In this document: positions 4,876 to 33,308 of the stretch, piece by piece | Position numbering within the stretch: position 1 is the stretch's first letter | How the letters are laid out: the number at the start of each line of letters is the position of its first letter | The notes under the pieces: generated by a model | Seen by the model: only the letters and a program-made list of their open reading frames with translations | Told to the model about the DNA's origin: nothing | Databases searched by the model: none | Assembly (NCBI GenBank): GCA_019695185.1 | Contig: JAIBAN010000002.1 | Span: 124,001-188,000, forward strand | DNA from: Blastocatellia bacterium | GTDB taxonomy: Bacteria; Acidobacteriota; Blastocatellia; Chloracidobacteriales; Chloracidobacteriaceae | Reading direction: 5' to 3' | DNA: 64,000 nucleotides | Made by a program: the position numbers and the translations under genes

Positions 4876-6191
4876 TAGTTTTTGATTTTCTTAAAGGCCC
4901 GCTCTGCCGCCGCAATGGTGGCATCAATCACTTCGTCGGAATGGGCGGTTCCCAGGAAGGCAGCCTCAAACTGGGAAGGTGGCAGATACACCCCTTCGGC
5001 CAGCATGGCATGGAAAAATCTGGCAAATAATCCGGTATCGGAGGTTTTCGCCGTTTCCCAATCAGTTACCGGGGTTTCAGTGAAGAAAACCGTGAACATC
5101 GAGCCGACCCGGTTGAGTACTGTTTTGAAACCATTTTTCTGGGCTGCCTGCTGAATACCTTCAGCCACCTTTTTCGATTGTCGTTCCAATCCTTCATACA
5201 CTCCGGCCCGGCGCAGCAACTTCAAGGTGGTCAACCCGGCCGTCATGGCAAGTGGATTTCCCGACAGGGTTCCAGCCTGATAAACCGGTCCTACCGGAGC
5301 GACACAATCCATAATTTCTTTGCGTCCGCCGTAAGCCGCTGCCGGCAAACCGCCTCCCATGATTTTTCCGAGTGTGGTCATGTCGGGTTTAATCCCGTAC
5401 TTTTCCTGCGCTCCGCCCGGAGCCAAACGAAAACCCGTCATCACTTCATCAAAAATCAGGACTGCGCCGTATTGGCTGGTCAGGTCCCGGATGCCTTCCA
5501 AGTAGCCTGAAGCCGGGGGAACACACCCCATATTTCCCACTACCGGTTCAATGATGACACAGGCCACATCCGCCGGATAGGTTTCAAACACCTGACGGAG
5601 AGCATCCAGGTTGTTAAAAGGGACCGAGATTGTATGTTGCGCGGTTTCGGGGGGCACTCCCGGACTGTCCGGCAACCCCAACGTGGCCACACCCGACCCG
5701 GCTTTGACCAGGAGGGCATCCCCATGGCCATGATAGCAGCCGATGAATTTGACGACCTTTGTCCGGCCAGTATATCCACGTGCCACCCGAATCGCACTCA
5801 TCGTGGCTTCAGTGCCGGAGCTCACCATCCGGATTTTTTCGACGGAGGGCATGATGGAGCAAATCGTTTCGGCAACCTCGACCTCAAGTTCGGTAGGGGC
5901 CCCAAACGAAGTCCCCCGCTCCATGGCTTTCTGCAGAGCTTCTATCACTTCCGGATGGGCATGTCCCAAAATCATGGGGCCCCATGATCCGATGTAATCA
6001 ATAAACCGGTGACCGTCCACATCCGTGAGATAAGGGCCTTGTCCGGAACGAATGAAAACCGGAGTGCCACCAACCCCGCGAAAGGCCCGCACCGGACTGT
6101 TGACACCACCGGGAATCGCAGTTTGGGCCCGCTCAAATAATTTTTCCGAGCGGCTATAATTAGGCTGAAGTAGTGATAAGTCTTTTTGCAT
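4875..6191 (-). CDS. hemL: Glutamate-1-semialdehyde 2,1-aminomutase
   Basis: This PLP enzyme turns glutamate-1-semialdehyde into 5-aminolevulinate in the C5 route to haem. At 438 residues it is normal length. Visible markers are the N-terminal [11 protein letters not shown], the PLP phosphate-binding SSGTEAT, the IIEPVVGN strand, FDEVMTGFR, and the PLP lysine K276 in TLGKIMGGG, a context typical of HemL rather than of other class III aminotransferases. It is last in a minus-strand series ribE-ribBA-hemL, with gaps of 155 and 165 bp, so co-transcription is possible but not shown. Its stop codon is embedded in a heptad array. Confidence 0.95.
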
Positions 6192-28267: not shown

Positions 28268-28342
28268 CCTGTGACGGGGCAGATTCTTTCATCCGCCAGT
28301 TGTGTCATCTGTTACACTCCCAAGGAGGGAAAGGCGGTGGGT

Positions 28343-28747
28343 ATGCTTGAAATCCATAAACAATATCTGGTTGACGAAAACCAAAAGCCGGTGGCGGTGG
28401 TGATTCCGATTGAGGAGTTCCGGGAAATTGAACGTTTGCTGGGCCATTTCAGCCGTCACACAGACAAACTGTTTCCGGATGAATCAGAAGGTCTTTCTGA
28501 GCCAGTCAAACAGCCGGAACCGCCATTACAAACCGGAAAAGAAGAAGTTCGAATCCAGCGGATGGCCTGGATAAAAAGTCATCGCCAGGAATTTGCCGGA
28601 CAGTATGTTGCCCTTGATGGCGACCGACTGGTAGGACATGGCACGACCATCCGCGAAGCCCAGGAACAAGCCAAACAACAAGGCATCCCCAATCCTTTCC
28701 TGGTGCGTCTGCCTGCAGAAAATGAAGTACTTTGGGGTGGGTGGTAA
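28343..28747 (+). CDS. Antitoxin-like N-terminus fused to a DUF5678-type domain
   Basis: The 134-residue protein starts at ATG 28343, behind an AAGGAGG element 14 nt upstream. Residues 1-40 (MLEIHKQYLVDENQKPVAVV then IPIEEFREIERLL) look like the DNA-binding end of Phd/YefM-type antitoxins. A charged Pro/Glu linker follows. The last ~60 residues (WIKSHRQEFAGQYVALDGDR then LVGHGTTIREA ... FLVRLP) match the small DUF5678 domain. The next gene, a retropepsin-like protease, starts 2 nt after its stop, so the two are probably co-translated. Function is unknown. A regulated two-gene module with the first protein as regulator or substrate-tether is an inference. Confidence 0.75.
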   Translation: MLEIHKQYLVDENQKPVAVVIPIEEFREIERLLGHFSRHTDKLFPDESEGLSEPVKQPEPPLQTGKEEVRIQRMAWIKSHRQEFAGQYVALDGDRLVGHGTTIREAQEQAKQQGIPNPFLVRLPAENEVLWGGW

Positions 28748-28749
28748 CC

Positions 28750-29169
28750 ATGACCCATCAGCTCAATTTTGACAAACTTCTTCATTACGACATTGGGGCT
28801 CCTGGCATAAACCTGGAAGTAACACTCAGTCTCACCACCCAACAGGTCAACTTGACAGCCAAAATTGACACAGGAGCGAGCTATTGCATCTTTGAGCGCA
28901 AACATGGCGAGGCCCTTGGAATTGACATCGAAAATGGAACACCCGAACGGTTTTCCACTGCAACCGGAACCTTCTTGGCCTACGGTCACGATGTCACCTT
29001 GAGTACAACTGGCTTGGTTTTTGATTCATTCGTATTTTTTGCTGCCAACGAAGGTTTTACACGAAATGTTTTGGGCCGCTTTGGTTGGCTTGACCGGGTT
29101 TGCCTGGGGTTGATTGATTATGAGGGAAAGCTCTATTTGAGCCTTTATGGAGAAGGTGATTTTTCTTGA
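28750..29169 (+). CDS. Retropepsin-like aspartic protease
   Basis: The 139-residue product has the single-domain retropepsin signature: the catalytic loop AKIDTGASYCIF with D40-T-G-A-S, a flap-like region (FSTATGTFLAYGHDVTL), and a final hydrophobic glycine motif (NVLGRFGWLDRVCLGLIDY). Retropepsins work as homodimers, and bacterial members are often linked to small antitoxin-like or DUF5678 genes. It has no signal peptide and so probably acts in the cytoplasm. Its ATG is 2 nt after the stop of the antitoxin-like gene. A good terminator hairpin follows at 29310. The target protein is unknown. Confidence 0.82.
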   Translation: MTHQLNFDKLLHYDIGAPGINLEVTLSLTTQQVNLTAKIDTGASYCIFERKHGEALGIDIENGTPERFSTATGTFLAYGHDVTLSTTGLVFDSFVFFAANEGFTRNVLGRFGWLDRVCLGLIDYEGKLYLSLYGEGDFS

Positions 29170-29491
29170 CGGTTAATGGCTCAATGACTGGAACAGGATT
29201 TGAAAAATAGTTTTACAAATTGAAAGGGTGAACACTTTTTTGTTCCTTCAGGCCAAATGACAAAAAAGAAGCCGCCCACCTGCCGCTTTTCGTCATACAG
29301 AGCCCTTTAAGCCTGCTTCCCAGCGGGCTTTTCTGTTGCGTGCAAACAATTTCCGGCATTGTGAAAAACCTGGCATTCGAATTGCTGTTCCGGATTACAA
29401 TTCCCAATCGAGCCTGTTTTCTCCCGCACCTTTCCCGCACTTGTTCCAGCTTTACCCCGCGCACATTTCCTTCCTTGAAGGAGCCCTTCCC
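29170..29491. other. Intergenic region upstream of the pilin/DUF4349 pair
   Basis: This is 322 bp after the retropepsin gene. It contains the terminator hairpin at 29310-29333. I found no convincing small gene. The frame that runs through from 29336 belongs to the next gene's upstream region and has no ribosome site of its own. Confidence 0.5.
29310..29333 (+). terminator. Rho-independent terminator
   Basis: AGCCTGCT and AGCGGGCT form an 8-bp stem (one G-T pair) with a 4-nt loop, followed directly by TTTTCTG. It lies 140 bp behind the retropepsin gene. Confidence 0.65.
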
Positions 29492-29827
29492 ATGCCTACA
29501 TGGTTTACCAGAATTCCAGCCTCCGCCTGGGTGGCTGGCCTGGCAGTTGTTTTGGTGGTCTTTTTGATTTGGATAACCTCCAGTGTCAGCGCCCCGCCCG
29601 ATTCCTCCGGGGCGATTCCCAAAAACGGCTATGTCCTGCAAAACCTGCGGGTAGCACCGGCCACCCCCTTTCATGAGGCCGCCTGGTCCATTGAAAACAA
29701 TCCATCCATCAGGTCGGGCCTGCTGCGAACCGGAAACGACTGTTTTTACATTGACGACACGGGCGTCATCCGCCATTCCGGCAATCCAGCAAAGTCAGCC
29801 ACCACCTCCGACCCCACGCTTGAGTAA
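29492..29827 (+). CDS. Membrane-anchored protein with a type IV pilin-like C-terminus
   Basis: The ATG at 29492 follows AAGGAG. The 111-residue product has a non-pilin N-terminus: a short basic start and one strong membrane helix (WVAGLAVVLVVFLIWITSS) with no prepilin cleavage site. From residue ~45 it reads like the C-terminal half of an acidobacterial type IV pilin: KNGYVLQNLRVAP, then a Cys-containing CFYIDDTGVIRHS and the ending ATTSDPTLE. The matching pilin N-terminal half is found at the start of the next gene, 46 bp downstream. The pair therefore looks like a reciprocal exchange of halves. Function is unknown. Confidence 0.7.
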   Translation: MPTWFTRIPASAWVAGLAVVLVVFLIWITSSVSAPPDSSGAIPKNGYVLQNLRVAPATPFHEAAWSIENNPSIRSGLLRTGNDCFYIDDTGVIRHSGNPAKSATTSDPTLE

Positions 29828-29873
29828 CGAACCCTCCCAGAGTTCATTTGTCTTTTTTGAGGAGAACCGGATT

Positions 29874-30965
29874 ATGTCACCAACGAAAGAAATGTCTCTC
29901 ACCCATCTGCTCATTGGAACCACCTTGCTGGCCATCCTCGCAGCCATCGCAATTCCCAATCTGTTGGCGGCGCGGCGTTCCGCCAATGCTGCCTCTGCGC
30001 AACAAACCCTGCGTAATCTCAACACCGCCCAAGTCAGTTATTCGCTTGGAATCGGGCGGGGAAACTATGCTGATAACCTGGCGTTTCTGGGCGGAAGCGC
30101 CTCAACCAGTGTTGGATTTCTGGATAACACCGTAACCGCTGCACATGGGACGAATGTCACCGGCACCACTGTCAGCACAACCGCAATTCACCCCAACGGT
30201 CAGCCGTTCAAAACTGAATCAGCTTCACCCAAACCCAACGGAAAAACAGCTTTTGCCGCAACAATACGGCGGAAAATTGTCAAAAACGGCGAAATTGCCC
30301 TGGTCATCAAAGCCTATGAACCCTTTGCCACTGATTTCTCGCAACAGGTCGCCCGTTACGGCGGCTATATCTCGCAAAGCCAGGTGCGTCAGAGTACCGC
30401 AGGAGTGGCGGCTGCGTCGCTGGTGGTGCGGATACCGCCTGACGCCCTGGAAGGACTGGTTTCCTGGCTGCGGTTCCAGGGGCAGATGACAGCGGAAGCC
30501 TTCAAAGCCGATGATATTTCCGAAGAGTATTATGACTTTCAGGCCCGCCTGCAAAACGCCCACCAGTTTGAAACCCGACTGCTCACCATGCTGTCCACGC
30601 AGACGGGCACGCTCCAGGATGTGGTCACGGTGGAGGAAAAACTCAATCAGGTGCGCGAACAAATCGAGCAGATGGAGGGAAAAATTCGTTCGTTTGACAG
30701 TCTGGTCGGGCTGTCAACCCTCGCTCTCAATGTGAGCATTGCAGAACATTACGTCCCGCCACACACACCGACCTTCCGGGAAAACGTGCTGCAAACCTGG
30801 AACAGTTCCTGGCAGGGACTGCTGGCCTTTGCACAGGGGTTCGGTCTGTTTGTGGTTGGCTGGGTGCCGTGGTGCAGTGCGTTGGCGGTATTGACGGCCC
30901 TTGGTTGGGGTGGGTTCAGACTGACGCGCCGGGGCAGAATGCCCTATCCCGACAGAGAACCATAA
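29874..30965 (+). CDS. Pilin-like N-terminus fused to a DUF4349 body
   Basis: The ATG at 29874 has GAGGAG 9 nt upstream. Residues 1-~95 resemble a type IV pilin N-terminal half (LLAILAAIAIPNLLAARRSANAAS, then a GNYADNLAFLGG segment). The prepilin site is lost, however: the usual Gly/Phe and Glu5 positions read Glu-Met and His. From residue ~110 the protein is a DUF4349 body: RRKIVKNGEIALVIK, YGGYISQSQVR, LVVRIPPDALEGLV, a coiled coil (VVTVEEKLNQVREQIEQMEG) and a final membrane helix. DUF4349 proteins normally start with their own membrane anchor, which here seems to sit on the preceding gene. 363 residues in all. Confidence 0.75.
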   Translation: MSPTKEMSLTHLLIGTTLLAILAAIAIPNLLAARRSANAASAQQTLRNLNTAQVSYSLGIGRGNYADNLAFLGGSASTSVGFLDNTVTAAHGTNVTGTTVSTTAIHPNGQPFKTESASPKPNGKTAFAATIRRKIVKNGEIALVIKAYEPFATDFSQQVARYGGYISQSQVRQSTAGVAAASLVVRIPPDALEGLVSWLRFQGQMTAEAFKADDISEEYYDFQARLQNAHQFETRLLTMLSTQTGTLQDVVTVEEKLNQVREQIEQMEGKIRSFDSLVGLSTLALNVSIAEHYVPPHTPTFRENVLQTWNSSWQGLLAFAQGFGLFVVGWVPWCSALAVLTALGWGGFRLTRRGRMPYPDREP

Positions 30966-31080: not shown

Positions 31081-31142
31081 CACGTGCTGAAGAGTCATTT
31101 CCAGCCAAGCCGGAAAGCAATGGAAGAGGGGATGAACGTCAC

Positions 31143-33308
31143 ATGGGAACCTTTGATAAACACAACGAGAAAACGGAAACGTTTCCAACCGTGCCCGAAA
31201 CCCAAAAACCTCCGATTACGGTGGCAGAAGCGTCGGTTTCCACTCCTGAACCGGTTTTGGACACGCTGCCAGTGGTGACGGAGGCGGCACCACCTTCCCA
31301 CCCAAATGACCCGCTCATCGGACAATCTGTCAAAGGCCGGTATCTGATTGAACAGGAACTGGGCCGGGGCGGATTTGGCATCACCTATCTGGCCCGTGAT
31401 TCCTTTGGCGGTTTGCAATCGCAAGTGTTCAAGCCGGTGGTGGTCAAAGTGCTGCTGGGGAATATTGCCGAAGATGAATACCTGCAAAGAAAATTCCATC
31501 AGGAATACGAAGCGCTTTCACTTATCAATCACCCCTATGTCGTGAGCGTGCTCGACACCGGAATTTTACCCGGCGGGAAGCCTTTTTTCGTCATGGAATA
31601 TGTGGCTGGCAAATCCCTCCGGTCCATCATCAACAAAGGCGGAATTGATTTGGTGCAGGCGGCATCTCTGGTTCGCCAACTGGGGCAGGCGCTCACGGCA
31701 GCCCATCAGAAAGGGATTATTCACCGCGACCTCAAACCGGAAAACATCCTTCTCCAATCTGTCAGCGAATCCGATTATCAGGTCAAAATCATTGATTTCG
31801 GAATTGCCCATGTCGGCACCTCGCAACTGGGCAAAACCACCAAACCAATGACCATCGGCACCATTGGGTATATGTCGCCCGAACAACTGGAGGGAACCTC
31901 GACATTCCAAACCGACATTTATGCTTTGGGAATCATCGCCTACGAACTGGTGACGGGGCGGCGTCCGTTCAATCCAACGGGTGAAAATCCGCCGGTTTTG
32001 ATGTACCGGCTGAGTCAGCTTCAGCGGGCCGGGGTGTCGGTCACCGCCAAAACCCTCCGTCCGGATGTACCCGATGAAGTGGATGCCGCCATCAATCGGG
32101 CACTTGAATTCCGGCCCGAAGACCGTTTTCTGGCTGCCAGGGATTTGGGAGACGCCTTTGCCAAAGCCCTGTTTCTCAAGTCCGACAGTGCAATTCCGGT
32201 CCTGGAGGTCGCCCATGCGGTGGACACCACTGCCGAAACCAGAGTTGAAACGGAAAGCGGGTTTCAGACTCCGGCTTCAGCCGCGATTCCGGACCTGCTG
32301 GAACCGGTGGGCGGTGCGATGGGGCTGGCTTCCCGATTTTACGTGGTGCGCCCCACCGACCATGAGTTCCATGCCGCCATTCACCGCAAAGACAGCATTG
32401 TGCTGATTAAAGGAGCCCGGCAAATGGGCAAAACATCCCTCCTGGCACGCGGCCTGCAACAGGCCCGGCAGGCCGGTGTGCGGGTGGTCTTTACCGATTT
32501 GCAAACCCTTGCGCCGCGCCAGCTTGAATCACCGGATACGCTGCTGCTGACCTTTGGTCACATGCTGGAGGAACAACTGGATTTGGACCAGTCGCCCGAA
32601 TCCGTCTGGAGGCCGGAGCGCGGACCGGCCATGAATTTCAACCGCTATTTGAAAAACGTGGTGCTCAAACCGGAATTGCCTCCGCTGGTGTGGGGGCTGG
32701 ATGAAGTGGACCGGCTCTTTGGCTACGCCTACTCCAGCGAAGTTTTTGGCTTGTTCCGGTCCTGGCACAATGCGCGGGCGGCTGACCCTGGCGGCCCCTG
32801 GCAGCGCCTGACACAAGTGATTGCCTATGCGCTCGAAGCCCATTTGTTTATCACTGATTTGAACCAATCGCCCTTTAATGTCGGCACTCGGTTGGTATTG
32901 TCCGATTTTACCTTGGAACAGGTTATGGAACTCAACCGGCGTTATGGTGAACCATTGACCTCCCCCCAAGCCATCAACCACTTTTTCCATCAGGTGGGAG
33001 GTCATCCGTATCTGGTCCGGCTGGGCTTGCACGAAATGGTTGCCCACCACCTCCACCCGGAAGAGTTTTATGCACAGGCCGAAGCCAACGACGGGCCGCT
33101 GGGCGACCACCTTCAGCGAATGTTGCTGGCCCTGAATCAGGACCCCGGTTTGCTGGAACTGGTTCGCAGCCTCGTGCAGGGACAGGTGGCCACTGACACC
33201 AAAGGATTTTACCGCCTGCGCAGCGCCGGGCTGGTCAAAGGTGATGCGGCGGAGCAAATGAGCCTGCGCTGTCAGTTGTACGTCAATTATTTCAAGCAGC
33301 ATCTGTGA
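31143..33308 (+). CDS. Ser/Thr protein kinase fused to an AAA-like ATPase
   Basis: From ATG 31143 the 721-residue protein has a Pro/Glu/Thr-rich tail and then a Hanks-type kinase at ~60-350. The glycine loop LGRGGFGITYLARD, HRDLKPEN near 194, IDFGIAH and the GTIGYMSPEQ activation segment are all intact, so it should be active. No membrane segment follows. From ~395 there is an AAA-like P-loop ATPase of the AAA_35 type, with GARQMGKTSLL near 424 and a WGLDEVDRLF Walker B. The end (GGHPYLVRLGLHEM) is the usual lid. The next gene, 21 bp downstream, starts with the same ATPase type, so the two very likely form one operon and interact. Confidence 0.9.
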   Translation: MGTFDKHNEKTETFPTVPETQKPPITVAEASVSTPEPVLDTLPVVTEAAPPSHPNDPLIGQSVKGRYLIEQELGRGGFGITYLARDSFGGLQSQVFKPVVVKVLLGNIAEDEYLQRKFHQEYEALSLINHPYVVSVLDTGILPGGKPFFVMEYVAGKSLRSIINKGGIDLVQAASLVRQLGQALTAAHQKGIIHRDLKPENILLQSVSESDYQVKIIDFGIAHVGTSQLGKTTKPMTIGTIGYMSPEQLEGTSTFQTDIYALGIIAYELVTGRRPFNPTGENPPVLMYRLSQLQRAGVSVTAKTLRPDVPDEVDAAINRALEFRPEDRFLAARDLGDAFAKALFLKSDSAIPVLEVAHAVDTTAETRVETESGFQTPASAAIPDLLEPVGGAMGLASRFYVVRPTDHEFHAAIHRKDSIVLIKGARQMGKTSLLARGLQQARQAGVRVVFTDLQTLAPRQLESPDTLLLTFGHMLEEQLDLDQSPESVWRPERGPAMNFNRYLKNVVLKPELPPLVWGLDEVDRLFGYAYSSEVFGLFRSWHNARAADPGGPWQRLTQVIAYALEAHLFITDLNQSPFNVGTRLVLSDFTLEQVMELNRRYGEPLTSPQAINHFFHQVGGHPYLVRLGLHEMVAHHLHPEEFYAQAEANDGPLGDHLQRMLLALNQDPGLLELVRSLVQGQVATDTKGFYRLRSAGLVKGDAAEQMSLRCQLYVNYFKQHL

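Follow-up and report, generated by a model that had tools for sequence, protein, structure and literature searches.

A candidate split pilin with its stalk fused to DUF4349 and its head encoded by the adjoining gene

The window analysed here is a 64,000-nucleotide stretch of a Blastocatellia bacterium genome, an 8.33-Mb draft of 222 contigs belonging to family f1. Two genes in it lie on the same strand with both frames open, separated by a 46-bp spacer (29828..29873, +). Gene 1 (29492..29827, +; 111 aa) encodes a membrane helix followed by a pilin beta head without a stalk, and gene 2 (29874..30965, +; 363 aa) encodes a pilin stalk and loop, a linker, a DUF4349 domain and a C-terminal membrane helix. 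Each start is preceded by a Shine-Dalgarno-like sequence, AAGGAG at 29478..29483 (+) for gene 1 and GAGGAG at 29859..29864 (+) for gene 2. Positions 28271-29169 of the window encode a RelB-like plus DUF5678 protein and then a retropepsin-like aspartyl protease, with a few bases of overlap, and positions 31134-33308 encode an AAA_35 domain fused to a serine/threonine kinase.

The membrane helix of gene 1 covers residues 10-31 (29519..29584, +; helix H10-31 of the AlphaFold2 model) and matched no family in Pfam or NCBIfam. It is followed by the hexamer GGGGCG (junction 1; 29609..29614, +) and by the beta-sheet head, which the alignment places at residues 42-111 (29615..29824, +; IPKNGY...TGNDCFYIDDTGVIRHSG). 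Gene 1 as a whole gave no Pfam match and no significant NCBIfam match. Residues 38-106 align with the C-terminal halves of pilins from the same genome, with 45% identity to the C20 pilins (E 2.3e-16) and 47% to the C66 pilin (E 8.4e-17), which bears out the first-pass annotation of gene 1 as a membrane anchor joined to a pilin C-terminal half. Nearly all of the pilin family motif is kept in the head, whose identity to C20 (43%) is no higher than that to several other pilin heads (41-44%); the two pilin halves of the locus may therefore derive from different pilins. No prepilin-peptidase site is present. Structure models of both proteins were built as single chains from input alignments of window and locus proteins; that of gene 1 combines the membrane helix with a confident four-strand head (core pLDDT about 97). 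A Foldseek search of this model against the PDB returned nothing significant, with the pilin PilX appearing only at E about 1.

Gene 2 begins with a pilin N-terminal half (residues 1-91; 29874..30146, +) that comprises a stalk helix (residues 9-57) and the alpha-beta loop, residues 4-97 being 70% identical to the C20 pilins over their N-terminal half (E 2.9e-33). A linker predicted to be mostly disordered (residues 92-132; 30147..30269, +), with GGGACG (junction 2) at its start, leads to the DUF4349 domain (PF14257; residues 133-345; 30270..30908, +). This domain is complete, covering positions 1-213 of the 213-position Pfam profile (E 7.6e-51; 172.9 bits against a curated cut-off of 27.7), and is the sole DUF4349 of the genome. 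The first-pass description of gene 2 as a pilin N-terminal half carrying a DUF4349 body thus holds. A C-terminal helix (residues 301-354; 30774..30935, +) contains, according to the model, the hydrophobic tail anchor usual in DUF4349 proteins. In the single-chain model the stalk helix is intact, the loop and linker are disordered and DUF4349 is confidently folded (pLDDT mostly >90); Foldseek found no significant match to it in the PDB. At the N-terminus, PTKE/MSLTH replaces the KQKG/FSLIE of C20, so that Gly-1 has become Glu, Phe1 Met and Glu5 His, and the loss of the prepilin peptidase site noted earlier is confirmed. Lacking both this motif and Glu5, the gene 2 product would be expected to remain in the membrane and not to polymerise.

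The two pilin pieces fit end to end. Gene 2 aligns with the C20 pilin without gaps from residue 1 through 90 or 91, gene 1 does so over 70 positions from IPKNGY to the end, and the pieces abut with neither overlap nor gap (91 + 70 = 161 residues, compared with 162 in the intact pilin), placing the breakpoint where the alpha-beta loop gives way to the first head strand. Searched separately, both halves proved specifically similar to pilins, and the body of gene 2 to DUF4349. The idea that the halves, combined crosswise, would restore two whole proteins is thus half proven: it stands for the pilin, and the 41-residue gene 1 anchor is too short to be assigned to DUF4349. Since stalk (gene 2) and head (gene 1) sit in separate chains, the pair does not qualify as a one-protein type IV pilin. 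Trees of the halves were weakly supported, with the N-terminal half grouping with C20 and the placement of the C-terminal half not resolved. The two junction hexamers resemble each other, a likeness short enough to have arisen by chance, and were discounted. The spacer was not significantly similar to that between the tandem C20 genes, 76 of 1000 shuffles scoring equally well.

The distribution of conserved residues along gene 2 bears on whether the head contact survives. Compared with C20, only 16 of 30 positions are identical in the membrane half of the stalk (residues 1-30), against 50 of 60 in the head-contacting stalk half and loop (residues 31-90). The pattern is reversed in four intact pilins of the family, with 27-28 of 30 and 36-38 of 60 identical positions, respectively (Fisher p 2e-4 to 8e-4). 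The dN between gene 2 and C20 is 0.145 for residues 31-90 and 0.55 for residues 1-26, a contrast indicating that constraint persisted on the head-facing part as the membrane part diverged. With third positions close to saturation in this comparison (39 of 60 codons differ), the pilin pieces were not copied from C20 in the recent past. This pattern suggests that selection still acts on the part of gene 2 that packs against the head, and it is the main, though indirect, support for a surviving head-stalk contact, because a mere anchor stretch would be expected to show the opposite; as no orthologue of the gene pair was found, part of the similarity of gene 2 to C20 may predate the split.

Pilin-like domains are scattered over this genome as the C20 tandem, a C133 array and various fusions, and the picture in G003 is similar. 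The tandem (G000:C20; L033:4413-4901 and 5141-5629) consists of two pilin genes with identical proteins and near-identical DNA at a 728-bp period. Fusion partners include a fatty acid hydroxylase, a DUF3352-type protein and Cys-rich membrane proteins; the hydroxylase, with a C-terminal pilin-like domain, is encoded some 10 kb ahead of the window on the contig that contains it (L035:4965-6302, -). Cys-rich (CxxCHQSD) membrane proteins with pilin-like heads recur in this genome (G000) and G003 (L036:3426-4334, L034:2723-3439 and 5148-5867, L119, L120, L122 and L126), and the two tested had no Pfam match. The protein at L036:3426-4334 (G000:C72) is a mosaic pilin whose N-terminal half is nearest to C20 (57%) and whose C-terminal half is nearest to C66 (61%), hinting that pilin paralogues may recombine near the breakpoint at which the window pilin is split. 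A prepilin peptidase domain is also encoded in the genome (partial match, above cut-off).

We looked for relatives of the arrangement in genomes of the same family (G001-G009) and order (G010-G013) and beyond. The two-gene arrangement was absent from every relative examined, a set in which the genus itself has no second member. Relatives of the M48 peptidase encoded upstream occur in G003 and G001, where the stretches fetched around them contain none of the other window genes. When the genome collection was scanned for near relatives of gene 2, only one distant DUF4349, from Verrucomicrobiota, came up, and plasmids gave only distant DUF4349 matches. G081 supplies the closest DUF4349 relative (42%), which is anchored by a plain membrane helix and also has a linker; the window protein joins it in the DUF4349 tree, far from the branch of family f16, and a wider search around G081 found no more close members. 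Within the class, most DUF4349 relatives are lipoproteins that have a long linker, and in most Acidobacteriota examined the domain has its own lipoprotein or membrane anchor. Unswapped forms of both partners thus exist, as intact C20 tandem pilins and as self-anchored DUF4349 proteins.

Our preferred reading, on which we are evenly divided between acceptance and doubt, is that the pair forms a non-polymerising split pilin that anchors DUF4349 and receives its head in trans. A C20-type pilin of this genome would have been split near the end of the alpha-beta loop, its stalk and loop becoming the N-terminal anchor of the only DUF4349 protein and its beta-sheet head moving onto a separate membrane helix in the adjoining upstream gene. 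With the gene 2 product retained unpolymerised in the membrane, the head of gene 1, presumably co-expressed, could dock on the exposed stalk and loop to complete a two-chain pilin-like domain, by analogy with PilA-N and PilA-C of Geobacter, and a periplasmic DUF4349 would be held in a two-protein membrane complex. More tentatively, the pilin fold may here have left filament building to become a two-chain docking module, made of a non-cleavable stalk-DUF4349 protein and a separate membrane-protein head. If so, the contact between pilin stalk and head would be usable as a stand-alone connector.

As to how the pair arose, a reciprocal domain exchange between a pilin and a DUF4349 gene, as first proposed, is plausible but unproven: the split pilin with complementary ends is borne out, and an exchange in the strict sense is not, the source of the gene 1 anchor being unproved. 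That anchor (residues 1-41) is a plain membrane helix of the same type as in G081; it is possible that it is the former DUF4349 anchor, although its 41 residues are too short and hydrophobic to prove the source. We infer that a circularly permuted pilin unit entered a DUF4349 gene in a single insertion; one step of this kind would give the order DUF-N, pilin-C, spacer, pilin-N, DUF-C and would also account for the orientation and the matching ends. A serious rival for the origin, and one with a fair amount in its favour even if we lean away from it, is duplication followed by complementary loss, in which tandem pilins lay beside or became fused to DUF4349 and no reciprocal exchange took place; the stalk of one copy would have disappeared and a plain anchor been added, and the head of the other would have been lost on joining DUF4349. 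Tandem pilins do exist in the genome (the C20 pair and the C133 array), duplication, degeneration and separation have been proposed for Geobacter (PMC5174107), and the gene 1 head is not specifically nearest to C20. Yet this course requires two separate losses to end at the same residue and leaves the absent DUF4349 anchor unexplained. It is compatible with two products that still pair.

It is also conceivable, though we think it unlikely, that gene 2 merely borrowed the stalk as a DUF4349 anchor and that gene 1 is an unrelated neighbour with which it does not interact, one among the many membrane-anchored pilin-head proteins of the genome. Pilin heads on foreign anchors are indeed common here and in G003, and in family f16, another family of the same phylum, about ten DUF4349 proteins carry at their start a pilin-like membrane stretch of the PNLLRSR type, the only part of the stalk that they keep, with no head. 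In those anchors, however, the membrane part is what remains and the head-facing part and loop are gone, the opposite of gene 2; the other fused pilin heads examined are preceded by a stalk-like segment, some of them strongly diverged, whereas gene 1 has none; and the ends of the two pilin pieces match to the residue. An assembly chimera or decaying genes are highly improbable, for although the genome is a draft of 222 contigs, exact matches to the compared pilin loci of the genome extend to 17 bp at most and the best DNA match of the locus reaches only 72% over 198 bp, so that there is no sign of misassembly. The open frames and good ribosome sites, already cited in the first-pass annotation, speak against decay, as does a codon pattern of purifying selection.

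Family f16 further holds two proteins in which a complete pilin domain precedes DUF4349 in a single chain, G390:C165 (431 aa; L168:1838-3133, +) and G406:C200 (404 aa; L170:690-1904, +). Their pilin parts match f16 pilins (36-42%), which makes these fusions independent of the window. They share with the window pair the same modules (stalk, head and DUF4349) and, by alignment, the loss of Glu5; they differ in being one chain in the order stalk-head-DUF4349 and in belonging to a distant DUF4349 branch. By analogy, a pilin-DUF4349 fusion in one lineage suggests a partnership in another. On the more tentative reading given above, DUF4349 has taken up pilin domains on two or more independent occasions within the phylum, which would mean that it works with pilin folds, and the independent fusions offer a lead to a partner for this widespread family.

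Among known DUF4349 proteins (PF14257), one from Methylobacterium is predicted to be a lipoprotein bearing a tail anchor (PMC10924467, which does not address the function of the domain). Gene 2 resembles such proteins in its full domain, N-terminal anchor and C-terminal tail anchor, and departs from them in that a near-complete pilin stalk and loop serves as its N-terminal anchor where others have a lipoprotein signal or plain helix. A foreign domain is likewise joined to a pilin in the modular pilins with grafted domains reviewed in PMC10191384, but these keep stalk and head in one processed and assembled subunit. The closest parallel is found in Geobacter, where major pilins consist of stalk and head as two proteins (PMC10191384) and the heterodimeric major pilin of G. 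sulfurreducens comprises PilA-N (61 aa) and PilA-C (104 aa; PMC11046646). A profile of the pilin family detects PilA-N (7tgg_A and 2m7g_A), the match covering the stalk. As in the window, adjacent genes (GSU1496/GSU1497) encode stalk and beta head (PMC5174107; PMC10191384; PMC11046646), and the origin of this split pilin has been proposed to lie in duplication, degeneration and separation (PMC5174107). The G. sulfurreducens stalk gene is the first of the two, its product retains the processing site and polymerises, and no further domain is attached to either half. In the window pair, by contrast, the head gene precedes the stalk gene and brings a membrane helix of its own, and the stalk carries DUF4349; with its processing motif and Glu5 lost, this stalk is not predicted to polymerise. 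In the literature cited (PMC5174107, PMC10191384, PMC11046646), split pilins are reported only from Geobacter and its relatives, and the window pair, if our reading is true, would be a second split pilin, from a different phylum, with its halves fused to other parts and polymerisation lost.
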